From NCBI GenBank assembly GCA_028753945.1, contig JAPNXP010000009.1, positions 2,790,001-2,854,000 of the forward strand: a stretch of DNA of 64,000 bases, read 5' to 3'. Positions 2,959 through 63,410 of this stretch are shown piece after piece. Position 1 is the stretch's first letter. Each line of letters opens with the position of its first letter. The position numbers and the translations under genes were made by a program. The DNA is from Hexactinellida sp. DTS-2022 (taxonomy: Eukaryota; Porifera; Hexactinellida). The notes under the pieces are model-generated. The model worked only from the letters and a program-made list of their open reading frames with translations, did not search any database and had not been told where the DNA came from.

Positions 2959-5900
2959 ATATCATCAGTATCCATAATTTGAATTATAAACAGCTAGCTT
3001 AGTTGGCTAATTCATTGAATTATTTAAATGGTTGATAATCTTGTATCGTTAAAATCAATTTTTCATTTTGTGATTCTTGATTGATAATGGCAGATTATCT
3101 ATAACATAATTCTAATATACGTAACTTATGTATTATACGAGGAACTTTAACTGAAGATCCACTGATTATCAAATAAGGATTAAGCCTGAAATATTCATTT
3201 CTTGGCTATTATTCAATGAATTTGACAATTCCAAGTACATCAAAATATTGCATTTGTATGCTAATTTTCTCCCATTTTTTTTATTTTACAAATAAATGAG
3301 ACGCCATAATTAACAAAAATTGAAGCTTTATGACAATAATAATGTTCACTACCTAAATACTGCTTCCCGGAATTCGACCATTTCGTGCCACTGTTTTCCT
3401 GTGTCCTATTTATAATCTTTCAATTTTAGAAACTTACTTTAAAAGTTTTAGGCTTGGCGCCTCTTGGTTGCGCAGCCATCCAGAGGGAAACAGTCCATTA
3501 TCGTTTTCACCCCTATCTCCATTTTCGACAAGCTGAGAGGTACCCATCGTCTAGTCAACTGTCTCTATAGTTGCATCATAATCGCCTAACAAAATTCAAG
3601 TGTTTCACATTAGACTCCTCAAGGTTCTCATGATATTATATTAAAGTTTAGACCTTCTAATTGAATTTGAATTCAGTTTTATTCAATTTCAGTTACAATT
3701 GTGGTCTTAGATATATCACAGTGGCTTGACAAGTGGAATTAGGGGAATTTTTTTATTACTCAAGGCAATTGAAAAGTACTTTCACGCTCTTCAGTATAAC
3801 CTAAAACCTAGAAATCTGTAGTTTCGTGGTTAAATTCCATTGTGTTACTATAAAAAAAACCTCATTGTATTCATGACTCATTTAATTGAAGGAATAAATT
3901 CTTGTTATGATTTCATCACGCTATAGCACTTCTCAGTATTCATAAGAAACATTGAAATTACATTTTGGGGTTTAATACTCGTTGGTAGGAATATATATAT
4001 ATGCTTATAAGGAATCGGAGTTCCCTAAATAGCTATTCTTTTCAATTTGTGATTCAAATTATCAGAAGAATTTCGGACCGGAAAATGAGTCCTTCATAAA
4101 TTTAGTGGGATAACTTAATGTGGGCAGTCTTGGGCAGATGTTTTGAACAATTTTAATTGTTCCTATTTCTAAAGGCTATTAATTAATAAAATATAATGGC
4201 CCGCACAACACCGCCCAGAAAGTCTCCCAAGGCATTTTCTTGGGGGCAATAATTTAAATTTGTCCGAACATTATTTTATTTTAGCTCTTTTTTATTATAT
4301 AAATAGTATAAATCAGATTATTTATTATCTAATGTATAATAAGGAATATATTGATTTTGTAAATTACAGCTTTAATTCAGGGAGGCATCAGAGGCTTTTA
4401 TGAACGCTTTTGAAATTCCAGTAAGCGATTCTTATGAGATTCAGAGGAAATTAAAGAGCTATCCATGATTAATTATAGCCAACTATGCTTTTGAAAACTA
4501 TTTCGGATTCCTAAAAGTACTTGTACATGCAATAATTAAACTCAGTAACCATTTACCGTTCCAATGAAATTAATTGGCTTTTAGTTATTTTTTCCATGTA
4601 TAAAATTGATTATTAATATTCATGGTGACTAATAATGGATTGTTACCAAACCAAAATAGAATTTTAGATGAAATTCTCTGTGAATCTCCGGAAGGCCATC
4701 TATTAGACTAGGTACATCATTTTTAATGATGCCATTCAATTTGCAGCTATCTATAACCTATAGGTAAATAATACTTCATGAGTAGGTGTCTGCTACCAAA
4801 ATCCCTATTTCCACTAAAATGTCATTTAAACCCACTGTGTAGATAATGCCCCAATGGTCGAGTAGGGTTCATACATTTTCTTAACTAATCAGCGTACAAT
4901 AGGTTCGTGTCGGTGTTTAGAATTTAGTCCACAAGTTCATATTTTATTTTATTTGAATGTTTCAGACCAAATAGAGTTTCAAACGTTCAATACATAACGG
5001 GGGATTGTTTATTGTAACTTGTAGTACAAGTTTTATATTGACAGATCGGATCTGCAATATTTAGCTTTTTTATTTCTGCATGTTCACATAATAAATTTCA
5101 CACACTACAGAATTTCCGATTTTGAAAAAGCAAAACTTACAAGCCGTTAGCTAACTAGCACTAAACTCAGATCAATAGTAGTATATTATCGTTGATAACA
5201 TTTAGACGGCGTCAAATATTGCTGCGACCTGTAATTAAATTTGATTAATTGCTTTGAGTTTTAAATTATGTGGGAGAAGAATACATTTCAGCTACCGTTA
5301 CAGTTACAGTTTAGATTGAACGAATAGGATTGACTCTAGCATCATCTTAAGCTTTTAACTAATAATTGTGGTTTATTAATCAACACCATTGCGTTGCATT
5401 GGGAAAAAAAATGGATCTTATTAAAAAACGTACAAAGTGATAGAACCAGACACCTACTTAGGCACTTATGGTCTAGGGAGAGAGGGCGACACGGAGAAAA
5501 CAAAGCTTAGGAAGTGAAATTCGAACTAGTAACTGCACAGTAAAATTAGTATTAAATATTATATGATACTGTGAACCAGAACAATTTAACCGTGCCAATT
5601 AATTTTAATGTTTAATCATGATTCATGACTTATCTTGGGCATACGTCGTATAGATTATTATGTTATAGTTTTGTCTTTCAGTTAATTAATTAAATAAACA
5701 CGTAGGTCCCTTACAGACTCCATGCTGTCTTGGTCCACGATGGAGGAGCTTCTACTGGGCATTACTGGGCATATATATTTATGACTAATATCATCTCTAG
5801 AATGTTTCCTCAAGTGAGTTCTCATCTATCATACTTACCAAAGTATTACTTTGTGAGATAATTATTTATTAATATAAATACTATATTGAGGTTTATTTAG

Positions 5901-19232: not shown

Positions 19233-21971
19233 ATGCCGAACTGTTCTGCCCCTGGTTGTTGGGGTAATTATACCCCAGAAGAGCGCGTCCCAGTTTTTAA
19301 ACTTCCAGATGGTCCACCTGAGTTACGACATGCCTGGATACGTTACATGTCTCCATCGTGAGGATATTTCTTTCCTCAAATGGTGTATGTGTGTGCAAAG
19401 CATTTTCCGAAGGAAGATATTCAATATTTTCACACGGTACCCAGAGGAGATGCACATCCTATGAGGTCCCGCGAGGAAGACCCAAATTAATCCTGGCGCT
19501 GTCCCCTCTCTCCTTCCTGGTTGTCCGTCTTATTATTCCTCTTCCCCTTCAATTAGAATCAAACGAACTCGGTTCTCTTACGACTCCAAAGAGGAAGATT
19601 TATTGAACCAAGCAACTAATCTCAGCTTGAGATCAGAGAAACAGAAATGGAGAAGTTTCGTGTTGGTTGTATACAAGAAATACGAGATAAGTTAGCTTTG
19701 ATAACAATCCCAACTGACTGGTTTGTTTGGACTCAAACAGATAATTGTGTGAAATTTTTTTTGCCTAAGATGGAAAATCATAATATTTATGCAGATGTTT
19801 CTCTTGAAATAATTCTTTTTTATCTGTGAACGGATATATATATGGGGAGTCCATTTCTCTCTCACTTATCTCTATCACTGATATCCGACAAATTGAAACG
19901 ATGTTTACAGAGATTACTCTGAAACTTAGATCTTCCCCACGGAAGAAACATCCTCACCATATCTCTAAAGCAAAATAACATATTGAGGAGGCCATATGTA
20001 ATCTATTAGATAGTGATTAAACAGAATCCAATTGTTCCGATATGCCAAGATTACAATTTATTCTTGGCCAACTAGAGAATGTGGGTATTTACAAGAAGAG
20101 AAGGAGATATAATGTTATTTTCACTTTCCCAACTTTCAGAACATTAAGCTGGATTACTGTGTGCATCCTGTTCAAGTTTACTCTGCATCTTTTAGTGATG
20201 TGCGTCTCCTCTATAATTTAAAGAAATAATCCTTAGCTAAGTTAGCTCCTAGCTTGACTATCAAAGCTTGTTATCCTTCTGCTATTGAGCGCCAAAATGT
20301 GAAACTTGTTTTGAAAGTATTCAACGAATTAACTGTTGCAGCTCTGAAGTTACAGAATGAACTCCGTAACCAAGAAGACCGAAACAATGCACACGACTTT
20401 GTTGAAATGCTTCTTCAAATTTGGAAACTTTTCAACATAAATTCCCCACTTAAAGGTAAACGTTTGAATAATGATATCTCAAGACCTCTAACATACCAGG
20501 ACGAACGATTTTCATTCTTAGCTTGTGTTGTTATTTAGTTAGAGACTTGGCTGGCCTTGCCAGGAAATGTAGGAAAGTTAAGAAACAAATGTTTACCAGT
20601 TTTAACATGCTTGTTCTGTATTGCCTCAGATAACTAAGCATTTAACTGGATTTTGTGGATTTAACTATCTTTTGACATCCTTTTTACAGACAGATCCATT
20701 GGAACATCACTTTGGCCTATATCGTATGATGTCAGGTTTAACTATCATATTTCTTATCTTCAAATCCTTGAAACTGAACGCCGCCTCAAGTTATCCAACA
20801 TATTACAGATTTTAGCTTCACAACAAGATTGTGGCTTATATTCAATTCAGACATTTATTGATTCATACATATCCCTTGATACGAATAATGGCGATGAAAT
20901 CGATGTCCAACTAGTCTGGGATGAAATTGATGTTCTATCTTCCATTGAATGTAGTTTACAGACTCTTCAATCATTAGCTTTTATTGCTGGTTATGTAGTA
21001 CATAAATATATTTTAAAAAACTCAGCCATGTCATGTTTGCATTGATCATTTGACCATTGACAAAGACTTTATCTTTGATGAAGATTCACAACCCGAGTTA
21101 AGGCTTTTGCAATTAACTGACCGTGGTGGCCTAAAGTATCCATCTGAGTTTATCCTCGAATCTATAGTAACTTTATGGAAGACAGGGTTTTATACAGGAT
21201 TTTTCTTCAGGGGGGGGAAAGTCTGCTAGTACCAGGACCCACTAAATAATTGCTTCGCCAGCTGGGGGTCTGGGGGGCGCTGTTAGCCCCCCAGTAGGGT
21301 CCAGGGGCGAAGCCCCTGTAAGCCAGATACAATTTATAGTGCAGAGTATTATTGCTAACAATGGAGAGCTATTGCTGTAAATTAATCAAATAGTATTTGA
21401 AGCTGTGCCGCTGTGGTAACTAATGGAAGATAATTATAGCTTCTGGCACAATTTCATTAATGAATATCACTAGTAATGTTTGAATGGTATGTGTGGGGAA
21501 GATACAGAACTTTTAACATAAAATATTCTAGCCTAGAGAAGAATACGTCGATTTGTCTCTTTATAAAAGGCTAAAAACACCTAATTTTAACTGAAAATAA
21601 GAACTTAGCAGCATATTTCCAGGGGGGGGGGAAACTCAAGCTAGGGGGGGGGAATCCCGGGGCGCCCCCCCCTCTGTATAATACCCTGGAAGACGTTAAT
21701 TGCAATTGAAAGCAAAGACAACTTGTTGGCGATATTGATGCAAGGATCATCCAGAAAAATTATTGTGGAAGTAACCTTGATATTCTTAGTAGAGACTGAT
21801 GCGTTTGCTAAATCGAGTTGCATTTCTTGTAGGATCTCTATTTTGACTATCCTAAAAAATCTTATATTCACTTGCGCAAACTGTTTACTAGCTAACAAGG
21901 TTAAAAATTATAACTCTGCTGTTGCATCTAAAGGTATTGAAAAGCGAAAACTGAAGAAGTTCTCACATTAA
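19233..21971 (+). pseudogene. P-element-like (THAP) transposase pseudogene, copy A
   Basis: It starts MPNCSAPGCWGNY, a C2CH THAP finger start, then FKLPDGPPELRHAW. Later pieces are PSAIERQNVKL (about 20280), LLTSFLQTDPLEHHFGLYRM (about 20690), LAFIAGYVVHKY (about 20985) and the terminal NCLLANKVKNYNSAV (about 21880). Each aligns in order with the intact copy at 43222-46273. Stops, frameshifts and an inserted element (21184-21687) inactivate it. Confidence 0.88.
21184..21687. mobile_element. G/C-run MITE nested in P copy A
   Basis: The ends are AGGGTTTTATACAG and CTGTATAATACCCT. The exact flanking duplication is 7 bp, GGAAGAC, at 21177-21183 and 21688-21694. Removing it restores a continuous transposase frame (..TLWKT then LIAIESK). 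The interior has strong G-runs and C-runs near both ends and around 21240-21320. The superfamily is uncertain: the ends resemble hAT but the duplication is 7 bp. Confidence 0.8.
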
Positions 21972-31346: not shown

Positions 31347-32002
31347 TCATGGAATTGCTTCTTTCGATTATCGATGTTAACAACTTGGAATCAGATTAGT
31401 GAGATCCACCAAAAAGCTCAGGTTTCCCCATTTATATTCAACAAACGTCAGAAAAGCTAATTGTATCCCATTCTCATTGGTAATACTCCATGTCATATTT
31501 ACCATATATGGCTATAAATATTTGAATACTTTATTGCGGTTAAATCCAGTTTCAAAAGTTTTATATATGTTTCTAGCTTATTTGAAAACTTAAGTATGTT
31601 TACGAGAAATCAGAACGTAAACAATGCCCTGGAAATGAAATAGTTATATATACTTATCTAGCCCGTGAACTTCGATATAAAAGGCCTGAGTGCGCTAGAG
31701 CTGAGCAAAATCCGTGTACCATGGATTACTTAAAGTGAATTTTTTAATTCGCCCATAACATTTATAATTAAAATAACTTTGACTATCAACAGATAGATCT
31801 TTGTTTTTTATTAAATAATAGCTACTCCAAAATGTGACATTAGTTACATTTTGGTTCACAATCCGTTCTTATTATTTGATTATTAGTTCTTCAAATAATA
31901 AATTGGATGTACGAATATTATTCCTCTACTTTTTTTATTTAATTACTAATTTAGCTAATAGATATATTATTTATAACAACACTTAGTTGCCTAATTAGCA
32001 CT

Positions 32003-34620
32003 TGCTCAGCACCTGGTTGGCGGAGTAATTTTTCTGGGGAGCCGTATACACCAGTTTTCAAATTACCATCGAATTATCAAGACGTTAAGCATAATGGCTA
32101 CGCGCTCTTCACAGGGATGATATTGAAGACCTGAAGAACATATTTGTCTGTCCTAAACATTTTGCTTGCCAGGATTTAATTACTAAAGTGGATATACCTC
32201 AACCTAATGGTTCAATACAGAAGATTTTTCGTCGAACCATTCTAGGTGAGAATGCTATACCTTGTCTTTTACCCAATTTCCCCAAGTATCTAAGCACAAA
32301 ACTAGAGTCCTCTAAGCCTGAACGTTTACTCGTCAGGAGATTGAGAGTAAATTGTTCTCTCAAATCCTTCGAACAGAGCATTGATATCCATAAAGCTGAA
32401 GATGATAAGCTCGGTATCAAATCGTTAGCGGAACTAAAACATAAGCTCGCGGATTATGATCTCCCGCCTTCTTGGGTTAAATGGTTTTCAGCGGACACTT
32501 GTATAAACTTGATACAACTATCGAAAGAAAACAAATCTATATTCCAGGATATATTACAATTAATGACTCCTTAATTAACACCAATAGGCTTCTATCAAAA
32601 CATTCAAATTCCTCTTTCAATCCACCATCTTAGAGATATTAGAGAAATCGATAAAATTATCAATGATGTTTCACTATGTACTAAGGATTGTGTTGAAAAA
32701 TGTATTAACGAAGCTACTGCTAACATCGAAAGTGCAATTTCGATATAGAAACTTCAAAGGATCGCTAGAGAAATTTTAATAATTGTTACCACAGCTAAAT
32801 TTTACTGTGCCAACTTGAAAATACTCTTATTCCTAAAAGTCGAACAAGGTACAATATAATTACAAGGGTGCTAGCTCTAAAATCTCATTTGATTTCTTCT
32901 ACTTGCTACAACTACTTACAGTCGTTAAATTGTTTAATCTTCCTCCAACCAGCAATCCTACGTAATCTTTATGGCACTATAGGTTTGGAGTGCGAGTTGA
33001 AAACCTATCTGATGGCTTCTACTGCTAAATTAATAACCAAGAATGGAATGTTACACTACATTTAGATGAAATACATGTAAAATCAGAGTTCCATTACACA
33101 GGGGAGAATACTCGGCTCTTCAGCTACCCATTCTGAAGCAGCCAATACTGTTCTTGCATACATGATATCAAGTATGCAAAAAATGGTCTACAGTTGTACG
33201 ACTCTTAGCTTCCGCAATATCTTCTGCTGCTCAAATATTACCTATTTTCCTCGAAGTAATAAAAGATATTGAAAGTTGTATTCTTCAAGTTCAAGTTATT
33301 TGTATAGATAACTACCCTCTCAACGTGAGTCTGTTCTAACACTAATCTGGAAACCTGTGTTCCTCATCCATTACAGCCCTGTAGACCACTTTATCTTATT
33401 TTCGACTTTGTTCACAATATTAAAAGAATAAGAAATGTTGGGATAAATCAAATCGATTCCAATCACACATTTAGCTGTCCTTCATTCTTATCTTGTAATC
33501 TCCACTTATATGCGGCATTTCAGGATCTTCAAAACCTTTTTATACATGTGCAAAATTATGTCGCTAAAACAGCCCACCGCTTGACAGTTAAATCTCGTTG
33601 GCCATCTAGTCTCGAAAGACAAAATGTATATTTAGCATTTCTTTTTTTGACGATTCAACCGCTGCAGCTTTAACTGTCCATGCTGCGAAATCTAATAAAA
33701 TTTCAGAAACAGCTCAGTTCATTAACATAATTTCTAAGGCATGGAAAATTTTCAACGTTGGTAAAAGGCACCCGTCTAAATGACGAGTTTTCAATGCCTC
33801 TACTCAATAATGACAATCGGTTTCAATATCTATCAGATGTGGTGAGATGGCTTGATTAGTGGAAACCTTTTCCTAATAAGCATCCTAATATCCTAATAAG
33901 TTTTCGGCACTCGTGAATGTCCTTGAGAGCTAGAGAGTAGAGATAGTCAAGCATCCTACCATAGACGCAAAGTTTTACAAGTCTGAGGTTAAAGTTGGGG
34001 GGTGCGGAGCGATTTTCTGGGGGTCTGGGGGGCTTGCCCCCCCAGAAAAAAATTGATTGCAACAAATGACATTTTTGAATGAATTATACGTATATTTACT
34101 ATCCTAAATTATATTGAACATTTTATTCTTTATCCAGAGGGCACGGTAACACCCGTATCATTAACGTTGCCCCCCTTCAACTTTTTACGGGTGGGCGAAT
34201 GCCCCCCCGCGTTCCCCTCTGTTTGCGCCACTGCATCCTACCAAAAATTGTGGCTTAATTATGTTCTAAGTGTGTTTCTCCAGAATTACCAAATCGAAAA
34301 TCACTAAGGTATATACCGAATGATGAGTGGTGCCCAAAACAACGTAACAGTTTGTCAGATTTTGCAAACTGAAAGACTGTTAAAGATTTCTACAATTCTC
34401 AAGTGATTCTCTTAGAATACAATGGTTGGATGCTCAGTCTCATTCCAAGAATTAAAAAATAATTCTCAATATCTGACCTATTCGATTTGGATTTCTATAT
34501 CAGAATGTTAGATGAAGAAGTACCACCAATCGCACTCAATACGTCTCCCCTTCAATCTCTAGCCTTTATCTCCGGTTAGTGTGTTCATTCAGTATTCAAA
34601 AGTACTGTATATTCCAAGCG
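32003..34620 (+). pseudogene. P-element-like (THAP) transposase pseudogene, copy B
   Basis: The opening CSAPGWRSNFSGEPYTPVF is a THAP finger with the second cysteine changed to W. It continues with LKNIFVCPKHFACQDLIT (about 32130) and AIPCLLPNFPKYLS (about 32250). The longest surviving frame is 32188-32574. Later pieces include PSSLERQNVYLAF (about 33605) and YRMMSGAQNNVTVCQIL-like sequence (about 34325). Stops, frameshifts and two inserted hAT MITEs disable it. Confidence 0.87.
33960..34233. mobile_element. hAT MITE nested in P copy B
   Basis: A perfect 8-bp duplication CATCCTAC lies at 33952-33959 and 34234-34241. The ends are CATAGACGCAAAG and CTGTTTGCGCCACTG. G-runs and C-runs lie inside. 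Confidence 0.9.
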
Positions 34621-35579: not shown

Positions 35580-35817
35580 GAAGAACAAATGAGACGTGAA
35601 GAAGAGATGGATGTATATACTGACACAAACACCTTTGTGAACCCCCTTAATAATATGGAACGGTATTATGAAGGAGGGACCTGGATGAAATTCAACGATA
35701 TAACAGTAGAAGCTGTGAACTGGGATCAAGTAGTAAATGACTCAATGGGAAGTAAGGGACAAACCAGTGCGTACTGTCTCATCTATGTTAGGATACCAGA
35801 TACTGACCAGTTTGAAG
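35580..35817 (+). CDS. usp25/28: USP25/28-like deubiquitinase, exon (catalytic domain C-terminus)
   Basis: It opens after TTTTGATAG and ends before GTAGGC. The product contains GGTWMKFNDITVEAVNWDQV and TSAYCLIYVRIPD. These match the end of the USP catalytic domain of vertebrate USP25 and USP28 (W-x-K-x-N-D-I-S-V, then S-A-Y-C-L-x-Y), which cleaves ubiquitin from substrates. The residues before WMKFND (about 35 aa, acidic) are unlike the human spacing. It ends in phase 1 and joins the exon at 42125, whose first two bases complete the codon. The exon carrying the catalytic histidine was not found upstream. Confidence 0.85.
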
Positions 35818-38180: not shown

Positions 38181-38571
38181 TGCGTGCCAATCCAAACTGA
38201 AACAAACCACAAATTAAATTTTCTGATTTTTAATTGGGTGTATTGATAAATTTCTTTATTCCACAAATTTGTTATTATTTGACTTTATATAATTCCAGAT
38301 AACAATGATATATTATTCAAACCGATAGAAATATTAAAATGAGGAAGAAATTTTTTATTTAGTTTATTTATTTAAGATACGTATTTATATTTTATAAATT
38401 CTAAATTCTAATGAAATGATTGTAATTTAATAGGCATCAGGTTAATCTGACCAATCTGACCGAGTTGTGCCATATTGGGAAAATTTATCTACTAAAAGTG
38501 GACAGGTTGAAACCTTGACCAACCTGACCAGTGGCTACGCCCCTGTATGCTATTAAAATACAAGGCTGTAT

Positions 38572-40605
38572 CCGCCTTTCTGTCTCCAGAATTTGGGAAA
38601 GAGTAATGTTATATTGAGCACCTGACATCATCCTATAAAGGCCAAAGTGGTGTTCAAGTGGAACGTTTTGTAGAAATGAACTTAAAACATAGGAAAAGTC
38701 ACAATATCCAGTGAGAATATTTACTGTATTTTGAAGAGCGATACATGAATGTCGAAAGCTGGTAAAAGTCTGGTTGCTTAGGTTTCCAAGTTTCCCCGGC
38801 ATTACCATCCAGATGTCTAACCATTCTACGACTCTTGATAGAAAAGTAAATCTAGAATCGTTGTTTCTCAATGACTTAGATTATGTGTCCTTTGTTTGGA
38901 GTATCGACATTAAATATTTTCCACATACTGGTGATTAAAGAAATATTTTCAGATTTCTAGGAAGAGATGTTTTCTCTGGTATCCTGAAGTTGAAGTGCTG
39001 CTACAGTAGAATAATTAAATACTCTTAACGTTAAACCAACACTTTGTCGCTCAAGACTAGAGGGCCAACAATATTTAACAGTTAAGCGTTGGGCAGTCTT
39101 GGCCACGCTATGCTGTTCTGATTTAAATAAGAGCCTTACGTCATCGAAAGAGGCAACATTAGTAAGGGAAAAGTCCTCAAATATTGGATAGCTAACTGAG
39201 TGTTATAATTTTTCTGATTGAGCCAATTGTTACGTATCGTATTAATTATGTGGACGAAATCAAACAAGAGTTCAAGTGATCTTGTTTGATCAAAAGGATG
39301 TGGAAGACTAGGATCGAAGATTGCTGATGGAGAAAAACATTTGAATAATCAGAGATTAAGAGGAAAATGTCTGTGCACAATACTTGGACTCGAAGGTTAC
39401 AATTTTCAATTTCTGAAATTATCTGTTTTGTAACCGGGAATAGTTCAGGAGCTGAGGTTTTAGAGCAGGGTAGCAAGTGAACAATGGTGGATCATTTTTC
39501 ATAAACTCGAGACCATAAAAGCTAAAACAGTTGTATCAGGAGTAATATTAAGGGTACATGAAGAACTGATCAGATTTAATGTGAAACTATTAAATTTTTG
39601 AGTTGATACCTTTTGAAAAGATATAAATTCGTTATGAAGTCCAATACTTGTGTAGAGCTTGCGTAAGGTGATATGATGAGGAAGTATGATACACTCTTGG
39701 GCCTAAAGAAAATTATAGCAGGCTGGGGATAAAAATTTGGCATTTCAAAACTAGAACCATGGTGATCAGGTAATATCTTCCACGTGTCTTGGGTACTAAT
39801 AGATTCTCAAGTTGACACAGAATAAATTGTAGACTGGGGAAATAGTGCAAATTTTCATCAGGAACATCATCAAGCTTTTCAAGGTTAAGTTTGGTGGTCT
39901 TTAAGAGGCTCACAGCTTCAAGGATATCCTTTTCAAAGTGTTGCTTTTATATTCTGAAACCTCACTTATGAGGGTAGAAAATTGTCTGATATCACAAATT
40001 GTATTCACTGATAGTGGTATCTGGAACCATGATAAAACCACTTGACGGTTAGAGAATGACTATTTTTATGGAATAAAGGATTAAAATATTATCTCCAGAA
40101 GCCGAAGGTTTAATTAGATTAATTTCATTTGGATTTGGGTCCCAAATTAACCACCCGGATGATAATTCATAGTGTAGTAACTTTGATTTAACTTCGGCCA
40201 AAGACATGACAGCAAACTTAGTTTGCTCCTGACTGTATTGTAAGGCGGTGGTGAAATGGGTATAATCTATACTATCTGGATCTATACGTTTGGGTTTGGT
40301 AAAGGTAGGATGTGAACGAAGGTAAGTGGGACAGTTGGGTAATATGCAAGGAAATGCATTATCACGAAGTATTGGGCGGCGCTTACTTTAATGAGCGATC
40401 CATCAGGCTGAGGCATACCAATATCAGTAATTACTTCATCAGTACGAAAGTGTTTAGCACATACAAAAAGGTTTTTAATTTCTGAAATGCCTACTCTGTG
40501 CAGGGATGCAGCCATTTCTCTGTGATTTCCTTGTATTGAGGTCATTTGAAGACTGGTGTATGTGGTTCGCCATCATAATACTCCGACAACCGGGAGCAGA
40601 ACATT
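38572..40605 (-). pseudogene. P-element-like (THAP) transposase pseudogene, copy C
   Basis: The minus strand opens near 40605 with CSAPGCRS and EPHTPVFK (THAP finger), then IKNLFVCAKHFRTDEVIT (about 40460). Downstream pieces match the catalytic region and GYCDFSYVLSSFLQ, then PLEHHFGLYRMMSG (about 38680-38620). It stops at ILETERRIQ, so the last quarter of the protein is missing. Frameshifts and stops are frequent. Confidence 0.87.
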
Positions 40606-40897
40606 TATTCGGAATTCTAATAAACTATTCACAAAAGTAAAGAAAATTAGTTAAATTTAAGTGAAAAGAAAATTACTATTTACAATAAGGATACTACTAG
40701 AAGGTTGCAAATGAAAAGAAATCGAAATATTATCAAAGAAACTAAACTATTAGTCTAAGGCACTGGGTATCTTGGAAATTAAAAATTAAGTAAACACAGA
40801 TCTAAAATGAAGAATTATGGTTCAATGATATTTTAGCCTTGAAGTAATCTATGGTTAAGTAAATTAACGCTTAGTTGTAAGTATTACTTAGGTCACG
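38572..40897 (-). mobile_element. P-element-like transposon, copy C (one end missing)
   Basis: The right terminus TAGGTCACG, with CTATGGTTAAG further in, is a normal family end. GCTGTAT follows it (40898-40904). GCTGTAT also precedes the left border (38565-38571). The left border falls within the transposase coding region, with no terminal repeat. It is inserted in a Helitron. Confidence 0.8.
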
Positions 40898-41845: not shown

Positions 41846-42124
41846 ATCGTGATAACTCTTGAATACGTTGTACATTATTTACAATATTAAATAAATGTGT
41901 TTATGTCGTGATAGACTGCTTGTCAAATAACTACTAAGCAATTTGTCTGAGTAAATGCCGTAATTCTATAATGTCAGGATAATATGTTTCTTAACTATAT
42001 AACTACGGAACTTAGCTTGATACATTCGGGACGGGGAGGCTGAATACTTTTGTCAATTGACTGTATATACTGATTAATTGCGTTTTATTAGTATAAATAA
42101 GTGGGTTCAGATATTTCTATTTAG

Positions 42125-42491
42125 AACGCACTTGCCCACTATCAGAAGAACTGCAGACGTATGTTGAAACAGAAAACTCTAAATTCGAGAAAGAATTATT
42201 GGAATGGGATGAAAAAATTAAGGTTCAACCTACAGATCCGACTCATCCAAATTATAGTGGGCTTGTAGTTTCACCTACGTTACAGCCCTCTTTGCTGGAA
42301 AAAGATGATATGGAGCTGACTCTAAAGTTAAAAAAGGGAGTAGAAAATCAAGTTATGACACTCAAGAGTGATAATTGTAGCACTAACAATGCTGGGCTTA
42401 TAAGCTTACCACACTTTATGCTATGTATGGGACTTCTTAATACTGAAATTGGAGAATATATGCTAGTCAAGCACCAATACCAAACATTGCA
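42125..42491 (+). CDS. usp25/28: USP25/28-like deubiquitinase, middle exon
   Basis: The acceptor is TATTTCTATTTAG and the donor is GTAAGT. The frame is open across 367 bp with the phase inherited from the 35817 donor (G|AA). LSEELQTYVETENSKFEKEL then LEWDEK matches the post-catalytic helix of USP25/28 (ELKHYIQ..N..F..E..EWEEE in human USP28, from memory of the family). The rest is less conserved, ending with EYMLVKHQYQTL, which fits the family's EEYSRL region. It ends in phase 2. Confidence 0.82.
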
Positions 42492-42841
42492 GTAAGTAAT
42501 AACCCTCTCACTAATTGTATGGTAGGTCCTTCTTAAATCCAGGTTGTATGACTTAAGTTAAAAGTAATCGTACATTTATTTTCTAAGCATAGTACGTATT
42601 CCAGTTTGCAAAGGTAGATGAAGTGAAGGTAGGAAGGGTCACTGACCATGCCCCAGGTGGGATTTTGGGCGATTATTACCTTGACAAACATAGGATTCTA
42701 ATATATTTAGAAAATATAATAAAAGTCTAGACCACATGTGTCACTTAAATGAGCAGATAAAAGAGATTAATCCCAAGCTTAAATGTCATAATTAATTTTG
42801 TTACCCAATTTCACTATACAACTAATTAATTACTTGTGTAG
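42492..42841 (+). other. USP25/28-like intron with palindrome at its acceptor
   Basis: A 350-bp GT..AG intron. TACCCAATTTCACTA (42802-42816) pairs perfectly with TAGTGAAATTGGGTA (42839-42853), so the stem covers the acceptor AG and the first bases of the next exon. Confidence 0.65.
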
Positions 42842-42856
42842 TGAAATTGGGTATTC
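42842..42856 (+). CDS. usp25/28: USP25/28-like exon, 5' part, split by P copy D
   Basis: The acceptor is CTTGTGTAG. The first base T completes the codon left open at 42491 (CA|T). The next codons (GAA ATT GGG TAT TC) run into the P-element target duplication GGTATTC (42850-42856). The exon resumes at 46709 in the same frame. This makes P copy D an exonic insertion. The evidence is phase continuity plus family similarity on both sides. Confidence 0.75.
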
Positions 42857-43221
42857 CATAGCATTCTAATATTCTAAGGCAATGGTGGTTAAGTTTTTTT
42901 TTGGACCATGGATTGGTTAGACGAGTTAAATATGATAATGTCCAAATTAAAATATTTAGGCATTATTGCTGCCATTTTATATCGTATATCTCATAATAGT
43001 CATCCTCATTCAAATGAAAATCAATTTACATCAAAAATTGTATGTGGTAGGAATATAGAAATCTTGTGATTAGCAAATTTTAAACCACCCATATTACTTA
43101 TATATTTATTTACTACCTAGTACATAACATCATTCAGGTCGTTGTTAATTTGCTTATACGACTTTACTTGAGATTCAATTTACGCATTTTACTACTATTT
43201 GTTGTTTCCTAACTGAAAAAG

Positions 43222-46200
43222 ATGTCCTGCGTAGTTCCTGGGTGTAAATCCAATTACAAGAGCCAAGGTCAGCGCACAGTTTCTTTTTCTTTCCCAAAAG
43301 ATAAGGAACTTCGTGAGAAGTGGTTTATAGCCATCCCAAGACCAAGAGAACACTACGAGGAGAACAAATACTTGCAGGTGTGCAGTTTACTTAGATACGT
43401 TAAATATATCCTTTAATTAATTATTTATTCGATTAATTAACTACGATCCTTAGGTATGTAGCCACCACTTTAAAGATGAAGATATTGAAAGGACGTTTGA
43501 ATATTTTGATGGAGAGAAGACTGTCATCATGCCCCGCGACAGGATGGGTCTAAAGAACACTGCAATCCCTACTATTTTCCCCAACTGCCCAAGCTATTTG
43601 ACTGACCGAACAGAAAAGTCTAAAAGGGTATCAAGAGATGACAAGGATGAGATCATGCTTCGAGAGGCCTTCAGTATGAGCCGGATTGATGACAAGACTA
43701 CGGTTGTTAAGTTCCAAGTTAATACATTTGCTGAATTGTTAACTAAGTTAGATTTACTCGACCTAAAAAATGATTGGGTTACCTATAATCCAGCAACAAA
43801 TTCGTTCTATTTTCTGAAAATCGTACTGTTGGCTAACATCCCTTCCATTGAACGAACCCTCATAATTGACCATGATTTGAATGCTAAAGCATTATATATG
43901 GAAAAACATCCTATCCAATTGTCAACAAGGGTGATAAATGATATACGTCAAATTGAAACACTTATTGATGAAGTTAATTGTTATTCTTTACCCCAAAATT
44001 TAAATATCACAAGTATTACGATGAAAAATTATGTAGAACATGCGATTAGTGATATCGGTTGCGCAATTACTCAATTAGACCTTGGTCAAAATAGCTTAAG
44101 TGAAACTGGAATGGAAGACTCAAGTTCAATGAAAATTCGACTCCACTTCCTTCTAGACCAGCTGAGATATTTAATCACTGACAAATATAGTCGCCGCTAT
44201 AGTATTATTACTCAAGTTTTTGCATTAAAACTTCATGGAATATCGCCTGCTGGTTATCGACTTATTTTCTCTTCGAATTGTTTAATTCTGCCACACGAGA
44301 GGAATATTTTGAAAATTAAAAATTCAATTGGCTTAGAGAGTGAGTACTTCAACGTCCTTAAGGAAACTGCCACAACATTTAGCCAGCTCGATCGCCACAT
44401 AATTGTTCAAATGGATGAAGTACACATCCGAAGTGATGCTAGCTACAAAGGGGGTAGAATTATTGGATCCATTGAGAACCCTGAAGATCCCCCAACCACT
44501 GTTTTTTCTATAATGGTTTCCAGTTTGGCTAAAAAATATTCAACCATTGTTCGTTTGATACCACTCGGATCTTCGTCAGCAGAGATCCTTTTCCCAATTA
44601 TCAGAAAAACTATTTCTGATATTGAAAGTTGTAACTTGTTTGTTGAAGCGATTTGTACTGATAACTATCCCCTGAATGTGAGTTTATTTAAATTATTTTC
44701 AAACGACTCAAAAACTTTACAACCTAAAGTTAAACATCCATGTAACCCAGCCAGAAATTTAATTCTACTTTTTGATATCGTGCATATTATTAAATCAATT
44801 CGTAATAATTGGTTAAATTTACACGACCATGACAAGACATTTGTTTTCCCCCTGTTTGAAGATTGCTTTGGAGGTTATTCAAACTACTTAACTCCACCTA
44901 ATAGTCTTTGTGTTTCTATTCAAACAAAAAATGTTACCGTTAATCCTATTGAACACCCGTCACTCTATCCACAAGTATGTACAGCTCCTTTTGAGGACAT
45001 AAGAACTTTATTCAAATCAGACGTGTACAATATTCTGAAAAGGGCACCTAAACTATCTTCTAAGGCATGTTGGCCATCTAAATTAGAAAGGCAAAATGTT
45101 AACTTGGCACTTAAGATATTCCACGAATCTACATACTATGGACTGCTAACTTTCAAAACTGAAAAAGAAATTGTAGAGAAAAACCAAACAGTTGCATTTT
45201 TGAAACTAATTAGTAATATTTGGGACATTTTTAACGTTAATTGGGTTGGAAAAGATGTCCGGTTCAAAAATGAGTACTCAGCTCCATTATGTCAAAACGA
45301 TTTTCGAATATGCTTTATTCAAAAAGTGGTTGCATGGTTAAATTGTTGGAGAAATTTACCATGTAAATTTGGTAAACTAACACCACAAACGTTTACGAGT
45401 TTTAGGCACACGTGTATGGCACTACCTCTCCTAGTTGATCGACTTATTAGTGAATGTGATTTCAAATATGTATTATCAGCTAGAATTCAAAATGACCCCT
45501 TAGAACATCACTTCGGACTATATAGACAAATGTCTGGCGCTCACTACCATATTACATACTGTCAAATATTAGAAAGTGAAAGAAGACTCCAACTTTCAAA
45601 TATTCTGAAATTATTTTCAACGAAATTGAATTCTGAAGAAGTTGTCAAGCCTTTATCGTTAGTGAATTATATAAACAAATTTGCCGAAAACGCTTGTGGG
45701 GAGGAATCAGATTCTAGTTTTGATTTTCAGTTATATCTTGAGACACTTCAATTAATTCCCAAACCTCAAATACATTTATCTCAGATTGAATGCCTTACTT
45801 ATGTCGCTGGGTATGCCGTGTTTTCGTACCTAAAAAAGTCTAATGCTTGTGCAGATTGTCATAATTTCTTAACTACTGAAAAACAAATGGAAGTAGTGAA
45901 TGATATGGGGTCTCAATTTATTCTCATTGAATTATTAGACAGAGGTTCGCTTAAATATCCATCTATTGCAGTTAGCGAGTGTGCCAAAATTGTTTACGAA
46001 ACTTTTATTAAAATAAATAGCTCAGAAATTCTCAGTAAAAATTTCTTTGTTGGTCCCTGTCGTACTATGTTAGTTAGAATAAGTATGAAGGTTATTGAAG
46101 ATGATCTCATTGGCAAATGGAGAGAATGGTGTGATTGCAAAGTCTGGCGGTGGGATATATTACAAAAAATTATAGTGACTGTATCTAATTGTATTCTCTC

Positions 46201-46273
46201 AAAAAAAGTTAAGAATTATAATACGATGGTCGTGAAATCTGACAATTCGAAGCTTAAAAAATATAGTAACTAA
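43222..46273 (+). CDS. P-element-like THAP transposase (intact, two exons)
   Basis: Exon 1 is 43222-43377. A 76-bp intron (43378-43453, GTGTGC..CCTTAG, phase 0) follows, and exon 2 is 43454-46273. The predicted product is 991 aa. An N-terminal C2CH THAP finger (C3, C8, C54, H57) ends with the AVPTIF-like box AIPTIFP. This finger binds terminal DNA in P elements. A central RNase-H-like domain follows, with candidate catalytic D373 (VQMDEVHI), D455 (CTDNYPLN) and E597 (KLERQNV). The C-terminal P-transposase domain contains QNDPLEHHFGLYRQMSG, YVAGYAVFSY and CADCH. It is similar in size to THAP9-type proteins. Splicing is required to complete the THAP finger, a possible control point as in Drosophila P, where splicing limits transposase production; that parallel is inference. 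The catalytic glutamate assignment is tentative. Confidence 0.93.
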
Positions 46274-46700
46274 TTTTCTTTATTTAGATACTTCTCAGAT
46301 GTTTGTTAAAGCAACAAATTCTTTTGATGATAACTATTGTTGACAGTGTATTGTTTTTATGTTCCTGTACGAAGCTCTGAAGTTCCCAAACTACATTTTA
46401 TGTTGTTCTGTTCTTTCATAATGTAACAAATATTTATTTTTCATGAATGAATTAAACATGTAGCTATTGTTCACACCTTCACTAATTACTATTAGGGATC
46501 AATATAATATTAGAGGGGGGGAGGTACAAAGTAGAGTGAAGAAGTATAACTCAACAGTGTAATTTCACTGTAAAACACTACCAAACTGATCAATATATCT
46601 AATTTTGAACTTGTGTATATAATCATATTTAACTCGTCTAACCAATCCATGGTCCAAAAAAAAACTTGACCACCATTGCCTTAGAATATTAGAATGCTAT
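46274..46700 (+). other. 3' non-coding part of P copy D
   Basis: It follows the TAA stop. AATTTTCTTT and repeated TTTATTTTTC tracts are AT-rich. The last 75 bp is the right inverted repeat. No polyadenylation signal was proven. Confidence 0.6.
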
Positions 46701-46708
46701 GGGTATTC

Positions 46709-46796
46709 ATTGTGTCTTTGCCCACAATATATCGAGTTTAAAATTTATATTTATTTGAAAGATGTAGAGCTCTTGGAACGGCACATTATGCTGCAG
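46709..46796 (+). CDS. usp25/28: USP25/28-like exon, 3' part, beyond P copy D
   Basis: It continues the frame from 42856 and encodes LCLCPQYIEFKIYIYLKDVE then LLERHIMLQ before the donor CAG|GTACAG. The IYxxxKDxxLLERHIMLQ pattern fits the helical C-terminal region of USP25/28 (VYFFQN..P..VVERTLLEQ in human USP28). It ends in phase 0. Confidence 0.7.
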
Positions 46797-47339
46797 GTAC
46801 AGCGAGGCTGTACATCTTTTCTAATTGATGAAAAAAATGGAAATTTAAAGGGGCTCAATGGTTTAATTATCTATACTTGCACAGGAACAATAAATTATTA
46901 ATTAAAATGATAAAATAGTCGCCGACCATTTGGATATATTTAGTCAGGCAGTACCACTTTATATATCTTAAACCTTCTGCCACATCACTTTTGACGCAGT
47001 TTTTTTTGTGCCGCGCTTTGGGGCTCGCCACTTCCCAAATATGATCGCTTGACCCAGGGAAATTACCAACCTATAGGATAGAAGGAAGGCTGTTTCCTCT
47101 TTCGGGTTCAACATTAACCATAGCACTTGATTATAAAATTTATGTTTTTTTGATAATGAAAGTATTTATATCTTAGAATCTTTCATGAGCTCGCCTAATT
47201 AAATGTATTCGAGCCAAATAGGAAATCAGGTATGATGAATCGATAAACAAAATAACTAGGTTTAGACAAGACAAGTTTTTTGGATAACTTATACAATAAC
47301 CAATGTTTTCTACTCTGTTATCTAGCCACATGTTTATGT
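46797..47339. other. Intronic DNA, nothing recognised
   Basis: AT-rich, with one GC island near 46990-47040 (GCCGCGCTTTGGGGCTCGCC). The frame 46710-46901 reads through from the exon and stops. Confidence 0.45.
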
Positions 47340-50855: not shown

Positions 50856-51507
50856 TAGAGCACTGCGCGGGGCGGGTTAATAACTTCGGGTTGCGGGACC
50901 CACAACCCGCGGGTACTTTCGGGTCAAAGAATCAGAATATTTTCGGGGCGGATCTGGTGCGGGTCACGGAATCGTCTTGCGGGGCGGGTGCGGGTCAGAA
51001 ATTCTTAATGCGGGTTGATGCGGGTCAGCGCGGGTTTGCGCAAGAGTTCTCGCTAAGGATTATTTGGGGGCGCAGTGTCCACTAATTGTAACAATGTACC
51101 CCTCTATAGTTCCTAAACAAAATAAACGATCAGTATAAACTTAAGATGGCAGAAGTCTTGCGATGGAACGAATTGTACGGTGAATTATTTCGTAATCTCG
51201 AAAAATATACTCGTAATTCTTCAATTTCCGCCCAAAACATATTGTCGTCTTCTTTATTCCTTATAGATGTAAATATTTTTGTGCCCGCATTGTGCGCCGA
51301 GTGTTTACACCCTATTATATAATCCTAGCGATAATACTGGTCATCGAGTGTTGGTGCGGGTTGGGCGCGGGTTAATGTGAGTTAGTTTCGGGTTGGTGCG
51401 GGTTCATTTGTTTATATCGTCGGATTTTCAGGGCGGGTCGGGTCGGGTCAATCACTAATAGATGCGGGTCGGGTGCGGGTCCCGCATATGACCCGCGCAG
51501 AGTTCTA
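50856..51507. mobile_element. hAT-like MITE built of GCGGGTC repeats
   Basis: The ends are TAGAGCACTGCGCGGG and CCGCGCAGAGTTCTA. GCGGGTC/TGCGGGT units cluster at 50870-51035 and 51350-51500 around an AT-rich core. Flanks GAACCTTA and GAACCTAT are similar but not identical. GC content is far above its surroundings. Confidence 0.78.
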
Positions 51508-61699: not shown

Positions 61700-63410
61700 A
61701 GCAGAATTCAATAGAAAACTGAAGTCGGATTTTCATAGAAAATGGAAGTAGGAAAATGATCCAAAGTGAAATGTAAAAAATTGTAATAGATCGAAAAGTT
61801 TTCCGATGTCGGAAAATGATCAAAAATGCTATTATACCAAATTTGGCTAAAAAGTGAACAAATAGGAATTTGATCGAAAAGTTTTCCGATGTCGGAAAAT
61901 GATCGAAAATCATTACTTGAAATTTTGTATTAGTTTGATAAACGTATTAGGTAAATGAAATTAGTCAAGTAAAGAAAATATACTTTAGATTGAAAATATT
62001 GAATAAATTCACTGGAAAATCTTCAGCAATATTATTCGTGCTAAATTGGTAGTAAAAACGGACATACTTTCGTTCCCATCAATCCAAGTTTTATAAAAGT
62101 AATTCTCAAGAGATTTCAGAAGTTCCAATTCAGTTAGCGTCAAATCTACGAACAATTTTTTATCGCGAATTATGTGGACGTAATATCCTCATCAAGTAGA
62201 AATGGAAGCGCCATCAATTAATGTACCCATTTCTTGAATGATTTGTTGGTTTTGTACAGCTTAGCGAGATCGATCTTTTGTACCTTATCATGAATAGCCT
62301 TTATATAGTGAAACCAACATCCACGATAGTGATATTCGAAAAACAGTTTTAAATGCATTGCGCGATGCCTTCTCAAAATCACACATTGCGATGGAAGGAT
62401 TGAATTCTGCAACAAGTTCGTGTAATGCTAATACTACTGCAGTATAAAGGTGTCCACTTTTAGAAGTCATCAGAATATGTAATGCTGGAATCGCATGCCT
62501 CTTGACCCTGTCAAAATCTGGTAGAATATTCGCGGAACTACATCGAAAGTGGCATCGAAGTGAATAATTTCGGCTTCCTTAAGCTTCAATAACATTAGAT
62601 CAGACGCAAATACTACCGCTTTTTCATCGCAATCCATAATTGTTAGTCTGTGGAATTTGGAGTAAGGAGAATTTATTAGGAGTTGGTCGAACTCTTCAGG
62701 AGATACCGGCAATTTAGGCAGGTGTGATCACCGTCTCTGGAACATCGTATTTTCAAGTGTTTTAAAAGTTTCAGTTGTTTTTGCAGCAGAAATCTCGGCA
62801 GTTCGTTTGATTCTGTTGGCTAATACAATACTATGAGATTTGTATTCCGATTCCGAATGATTGTGCGCTCTAGTTATATCCAAATGATTTACCAAGGTAC
62901 TGATTTTTGTCAATCCCTCACATGCATTTGGTCTAACGAGAGTGCACTTCAGATAAATTGTACCATTTAATTCCCGATTCTTTGTATAGCGATATCCTCC
63001 AGATATTTAATTAGTCGAATTCAATTTTTCCCCTCAACAATTGAAAAATTCATTTTGATTAAATTTATATATCATACTCTCAGTTGATGTCCAATATATA
63101 GTTATTTGATCAAAATGTACCTAGTACGTTCGCATACCAAAGTAAAAGTGCAAGCGTGATAAAACAACTGAATTTAATAACAATGCTTGTTATCATTTTG
63201 AAAATTTATACTAATTCACTCCAAAATACTCAAATTTCAATGGAAACCATTTTCGATCAAATTCCTACTTATTCACTTTTTAGTCAAATTTGGTATAATA
63301 GCATTTTCGATCATTTTAAGACATGGAAAACTATTCGATCAAATTCCTACACAACAAGTTTTCGATCAAAATCAGGCTACTGCAATAAAGATATTCAATG
63401 ATTACAATGT
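61700..63410 (-). mobile_element. FLYWCH-type MULE remnant
   Basis: Arm-like sequences at about 61780-61915 and 63240-63350 are inverted copies (CGATCATTTTC..., CTATTTGTTCACTTTTTAG). GATCGAAAAGTTTTCCGATG occurs twice in the left arm. Between them lies a decayed MULE transposase. The outer termini and duplication were not found. Confidence 0.65.
62215..63000 (-). pseudogene. FLYWCH/MULE transposase fragment
   Basis: On the minus strand: GGYRYTKNRELNGTIYLKC (about 62990-62935), then C..H.H with DITRAHNH, a FLYWCH zinc finger. This is followed by IHFDATFDVVPRIFYQILTG (about 62560), AVVLALHELVAEFNPSIAMC then DFEKA (about 62440-62370), GCWFHYIKAIHDKVQKIDLA (about 62320) and FKKWV. DATF and DFEKA carry candidate catalytic aspartates, and GCWFHY is the conserved C..H region. 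Three or more frameshifts separate the pieces. It is truncated after KKWV. Confidence 0.85.

Follow-up and report, generated by a model that had tools for sequence, protein, structure and literature searches.

Galileo, a P-superfamily transposon of Drosophila, has a target consensus GTATTAC, variable terminal repeats, and target-site duplications that are mostly 7 bp and sometimes 8 bp long (PMC4168063). Zebrafish Pdre2 has 13-bp ends that start with CATACCTGTCAAC and 8-bp duplications (PMC10983969), and the Drosophila P element has 31-bp ends and 8-bp duplications (PMC7776569).

The element described here lies in the window, a stretch of 64,000 nucleotides (C18:2790001-2854000). Like Galileo, the element encodes a P-superfamily transposase, and its family has 7-bp duplications in most copies and an 8-bp duplication in one event; unlike Galileo, the family has ends of about 80 bp, and no sequence common to the few target sites that were read is evident by eye. 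With Pdre2/THAP9 it shares the start of the ends, CATA (CATACCTGTCAAC in Pdre2, CATAGCATTC in the window element), and the combination of THAP, split RNase H, and GTP-binding domain. On the other hand, its ends of about 80 bp and its mostly 7-bp duplications set it apart from both Pdre2 and the Drosophila P element. A likeness to the Drosophila P transposase is seen in the structure 6p5a, to which the profile of the element's family aligns over profile positions 231-717, including the three acidic positions. The gene around the element is like USP25/USP28 in that its exons match the catalytic domain and the C-terminal region across animals, and unlike other USP25/USP28 genes in its very large introns, long branch, and a C-terminal part so diverged that it was mapped incompletely. 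In our reading, a recently active P-superfamily element has very probably inserted in an intron, not an exon, of this USP25/28-like gene of at least ~131 kb.

Structure of the element and its ends

The element occupies positions 42857-46701 on the forward strand (3,845 bp) and is apparently complete, as its inverted ends, its duplication, and the existence of other two-ended copies indicate. The first 80 bp of the left terminal inverted repeat (42857-42936, forward strand) start with CATAGCATTC and differ from the right repeat (46622-46701, reverse strand) by a single mismatch; in other words, 79 of the first 80 positions match, as do 81 of the first 84, and a second estimate gives arms of 89 nt at 96%. 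The sequence GGTATTC is duplicated perfectly over 7 bp on the two sides, at 42850-42856 and 46702-46708 (both forward strand). A transposon of this anatomy is more than chance. An earlier, sequence-only reading of this DNA had recognized both the perfect duplication and the paired inverted ends, and both hold. It had also delimited the interval as 42857-46708: the junction 42856|46709 is right, but the end of the element is not, since the duplication's second copy, 46702-46708, lies outside the element, which ends at 46701. The earlier interval was the element plus that copy.

A near-perfect palindrome of 52 bp (42802-42853, 48/52) overlaps the left duplication by 4 bp, and the 66-nt segment containing it has a folding energy of -28.8 kcal/mol and a z-score of -7.65. 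As a dispersed repeat it was rejected, having matched itself alone in the genome search (one candidate scored). It is present at one of the nine insertion sites examined and thus is not a target rule; its occurrence here is a coincidence or an unexplained detail.

The transposase

Exon 1 of the transposase (43222-43377, forward strand) encodes the N-terminal part of a THAP domain detected by Pfam, and exon 2 (43454-46273, forward strand) encodes the RNase H-like domain with the DDE residues and the GTP-binding insertion, assigned by Pfam and by a profile of 10 family members. Positions 43454-46273 are open over 939 codons, with the first ATG at 43529; together with the THAP exon, this bears out the complete transposase frame claimed earlier. 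The 76 bp between the exons (43378-43453, forward strand) run from GT to AG and would be spliced out as an intron: their removal joins the halves of the THAP domain as ...YLQ|VCSHHF, the same junction as in aligned homologues, and the THAP exon and the 939-codon frame then give a protein of 991 residues.

The Pfam THAP model matches the ORF at 43222-43413 with an E value of 1.6e-10, and the family profile also matches the THAP1 and THAP2 structures. PF21787 (TNP-like RNase H) is detected at 5.4e-13, PF21788 (GTP-binding insertion) barely so (2.7e-5, 25.0 bits against a cut-off of 24.8), and PF12017 (P transposase HTH) scores 15.5 bits, under its cut-off of 23. Against the P transposase structure 6p5a the family profile reaches 6.6e-38; the window's transposase alone gives a weak single-sequence match of 0.0032. 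A protein search with 7,998 candidates scored identified 23 transposase homologues, the best of them 56% identical. Residues D296, D378, and E659 (numbering of the 914-residue ORF) are invariant across 10 aligned sequences, and the family profile pairs them with D, D, and E in 6p5a; we take them to be the catalytic residues, and the transposase would use DDE chemistry. For the zebrafish homologue, a DDE triad is proven (PMC10983969). The THAP domain, the RNase H-like/DDE domain, the barely detected GTP-binding insertion, and the inverted ends with 7- or 8-bp duplications, all of them P-superfamily features, place the element in that superfamily as judged from its sequence.

Other copies and recent activity

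The genome searched comprises 112.4 Mb in 18 contigs, and a search with one element end as query returned at least 40 matches. Among the matches listed, 13 have 96-100% identity and represent seven copies, six with both ends and one with a single end; the other 27, at 87-90% identity, come from older relatives. Pairwise, the six two-ended copies differ at 0-34 of about 3,845 positions, and the window element differs from the other five at 16-21; the 939-codon frame is kept in five of the six, the sixth having 926. Copies so nearly identical, with frames mostly intact, point to an element that was recently active in this genome.

The duplications of the near-identical copies include GGTATTC (window), CCTATGA, and GTTCTAG, all of 7 bp. 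An 8-bp duplication, GGTCAATC, is found in three copies, and since these have identical flanks they probably stem from one insertion that was duplicated later. Both ends were present in five of six older relatives fetched, with a perfect 7-bp duplication in four and a single mismatch in one. On another contig, two identical element copies lie in inverted orientation with mirrored flanks (C1:15252166-15260195), and a third copy with the same flanks (14 bp per side compared) lies ~113 kb away (C1:15372805-15376647). These copies may result from duplication of a single insertion, or else from an error of assembly.

The USP25/28-like host gene

Three exons of the host gene, all on the forward strand, were located in the window upstream of the element. 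The first (5706-5813, flanked by an AG and the donor GTGAGT) has matches to 228 of 228 homologues at E<1, the best at 4e-9. The second (35580-35817, with boundaries from AG and GT alone) encodes the end of the catalytic domain (WMKFND..SAYCLIYV); it matches USP25 in PDB at 1.4e-7 and is also matched by 228/228 homologues at E<1. The third (42097-42491) follows directly after the catalytic domain; it has a GTAAGT donor at 42492 and an uncertain 5' boundary with several AG, and its part 42139-42228 is matched by 216/228 homologues at E<1 (profile 3.2e-8). If the first two exons are neighbours, 5813-35580 holds a ~30-kb intron inside the catalytic domain, between GHYWAYI and WMKFND. Extra residues before WMKFND in the exon at 35580 align with an insert of Amphimedon USP28.

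In window-relative coordinates, the homologue-matched upstream exon regions lie at -42573, -42394, -37840, -18182, -16377, -9008, -7111, -6085, 5706, 35682, and 42139. For each of these 11 regions, between 4 and 228 homologues give a match at E<1; many of the 228 are isoforms, near-duplicates, or close relatives of one another, and E can be lower because tblastn may link several matches of a single query. Past the window, a clear C-terminal USP exon lies at 87949-88132 (profile 4e-7; 93/228 homologues at E<1). Among 346 candidates for the exon preceding it, 78125-78251 ranks first, followed by shorter versions of itself; the profile score is 37.3 bits with this segment joined, 27.7 without it, and 31.5 with the next unrelated candidate. 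An ungapped alignment spans the junction of the two, and 78125-78251 is a probable USP25/28 exon. When tested alone it was matched by 0/228 homologues at E<1 (best E, 14); thus, single-exon tests can miss real exons in this long-branched gene.

The exon regions from -42573 to 88132 contain a USP catalytic domain and the USP25/28 C-terminal extension, and no exon with the catalytic cysteine was found among them. The gene spans at least ~131 kb, contains the whole window, and resumes past the insertion, at ~31 kb with the probable exon and at ~41 kb with the clear one. Exons for about 150 residues between 42491 and 78125 were not located, so that at least one unrecognized exon must lie there. 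Several candidates for missing exons were rejected. The segments at 65020 and 66329 ranked high in profile searches, but both belong to a minus-strand P-like cluster (65063-69246), and by eye the second also falls within a MITE-like repeat. The scores of 51110-51291, which has NSSISAQ in common with Amphimedon, and of 77463-77536 and 76320-76393 are within noise, and the ORF 88410-88730, picked by eye as a last exon, scores -1.6 bits.

Neither a second USP25/28 copy nor an empty site was found elsewhere in the genome (2 + 2 candidates scored; one exon served as query for the second copy, and both searches gave this locus alone), and the gene is apparently single-copy. In a tree built from 203 columns, the window sequence falls outside demosponges, adjoining Cnidaria+Bilateria, with support 88 and a long branch. 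At C1:15023836-15068355, nine matches to the UCH (deubiquitinase) domain follow one another in tandem on the same strand, in open frames of 394-605 codons.

The insertion site

The sequence-only reading had placed the element inside a coding exon made of 42842-42856 and 46709-46796 (forward strand), leaving either a broken haplotype or a dispensable exon. Several of its observations stand. Without 42857-46708, the two parts form one open frame of 34 residues, EIGYSLCLCPQYIEFKIYIYLKDVELLERHIMLQ; and the phase of the acceptor (AG at 42840-42841) agrees with the GTAAGT donor after 42491. Also in favor of this reading, a GT follows at 46797, and the residues that were not located must have their coding sequence downstream of 42491. 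However, open AG...GT segments of compatible phase are common: under the different donor rules, those 60-200 nt long make up 33.6-50.1% of the intron bases and those 90-120 nt long 15.1-28.9%. An open phase-matched segment at the site is no more than chance. The usual splice donor is GTRAGT, from which the donor of the proposed exon, GTACAG, deviates.

Comparison with homologues did not confirm the claimed resemblance of the joined frame to the helical C-terminal portion of USP25/28: its similarity is at chance level in pairwise, profile, and tblastn tests, an outcome that the earlier reading had itself named as one that would refute it. In the pairwise test, with 698 open 34-residue windows of the same DNA as the null, the best score of the joined 34-mer is equalled by 26.2% of the windows and its mean score by 49.9%. 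For two pieces of the exon at 87949, by comparison, 4.4% and 0% of the windows reach the best score and 0% the mean. As a positive control, homologous 34-mers of four named sponges and P0025 exceed all 698 windows by mean score (5/5); by best score 4/5 do so, the exception being Amphimedon, which is equalled by 12.3%. The joined frame aligns best to a single protein from Amphimedon, too, with a score of 32, the one equalled by 26.2% of windows; an ungapped Amphimedon alignment that also takes in the preceding exon holds 7 identities in 63, counted by eye.

Under a regional USP25/28 profile, the joined 34-mer scores -1.3 bits, a value also reached by 49.8% of 1,452 open segments of the local DNA. 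Left-out homologous segments of the four named sponges and P0025 score 9.1-32.2 bits (5/5), and 12 bilaterian proteins score 4.6-23.0, with 11 of them at 8.9-23.0 and Ixodes at 4.6, below the two best chance segments (5.9 and 5.6 bits). The profile score does not rise when the preceding exon is extended by the joined piece; it goes from 17.8 to 17.4 bits. By tblastn, the joined segment has no match at E<10 among the 228 homologues (lowest E, 24); the alignments that touch it, at E 24-58, were rejected as insignificant, and several of them cross the proposed donor or stops.

We judge both parts, 42842-42856 and 46709-46796, not to be exon; the apparent exon across the site is most likely a chance open AG...GT segment, and a split of a true USP25/28 coding exon is very unlikely. 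A lineage-specific, unconserved USP25/28 exon, hit by a very young P-element knockout or truncation that segregates with an intact allele, starts from a low prior and is left with no positive evidence; we consider it highly improbable. What stands of the earlier claim is the intact P-like transposon in a USP25/28-like gene; the coding-exon site and the broken-gene haplotype are unsupported.

The insertion is most likely an ordinary, intronic one. Directly observed are the anatomy of the element, its near-identical copies, and sequence of the gene to the left and right of the insertion. From these we infer that a cut-and-paste P-superfamily transposon entered intron DNA of the gene (42492-64000, forward strand, continuing past the window) and duplicated 7 bp of the target. 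The transcript would splice from 42491 past the element to exons farther downstream, so that the element would be removed together with the intron.

An intronic element could also act as a gene trap, if the acceptor before 43454 or an AATAAA/ATTAAA motif truncated some USP25/28 transcripts. The element is in sense orientation and has six such motifs on the sense strand, and splicing of 42491 to 43454 would lead into a short tail ending at a stop instead of into the transposase frame. However, the antisense strand has even more of these motifs (13), which are thus to be expected in AT-rich DNA, and we give this possibility very little weight.

Ten P-transposase-like clusters, including the window element, lie in the span of the gene, six on the forward and four on the reverse strand, and none of the ten overlaps the 13 located exon regions; thus, the introns of this gene collect such elements. 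Fragmented P-transposase-like clusters in the same gene are seen at 19233-21968 and 31997-34618 (forward strand) and at 38566-40615 (reverse strand). At 62288-63006 (reverse strand), FLYWCH- and MULE-transposase-like fragments, both under Pfam cut-offs, are perhaps an old MULE remnant.

Implications

Where an open AG...GT segment of matching phase spans a transposon, it is easily mistaken for a broken exon, and the claim made for this locus is corrected here. The element adds to the already known P superfamily, and the gene-breaking part of the claim is unsupported; neither the caution about exons nor the young P transposon is surprising. What is documented is a young animal transposon of the P superfamily that has several near-identical copies with intact frames and duplications of 7 or 8 bp, and the element is a possible subject for an activity assay.
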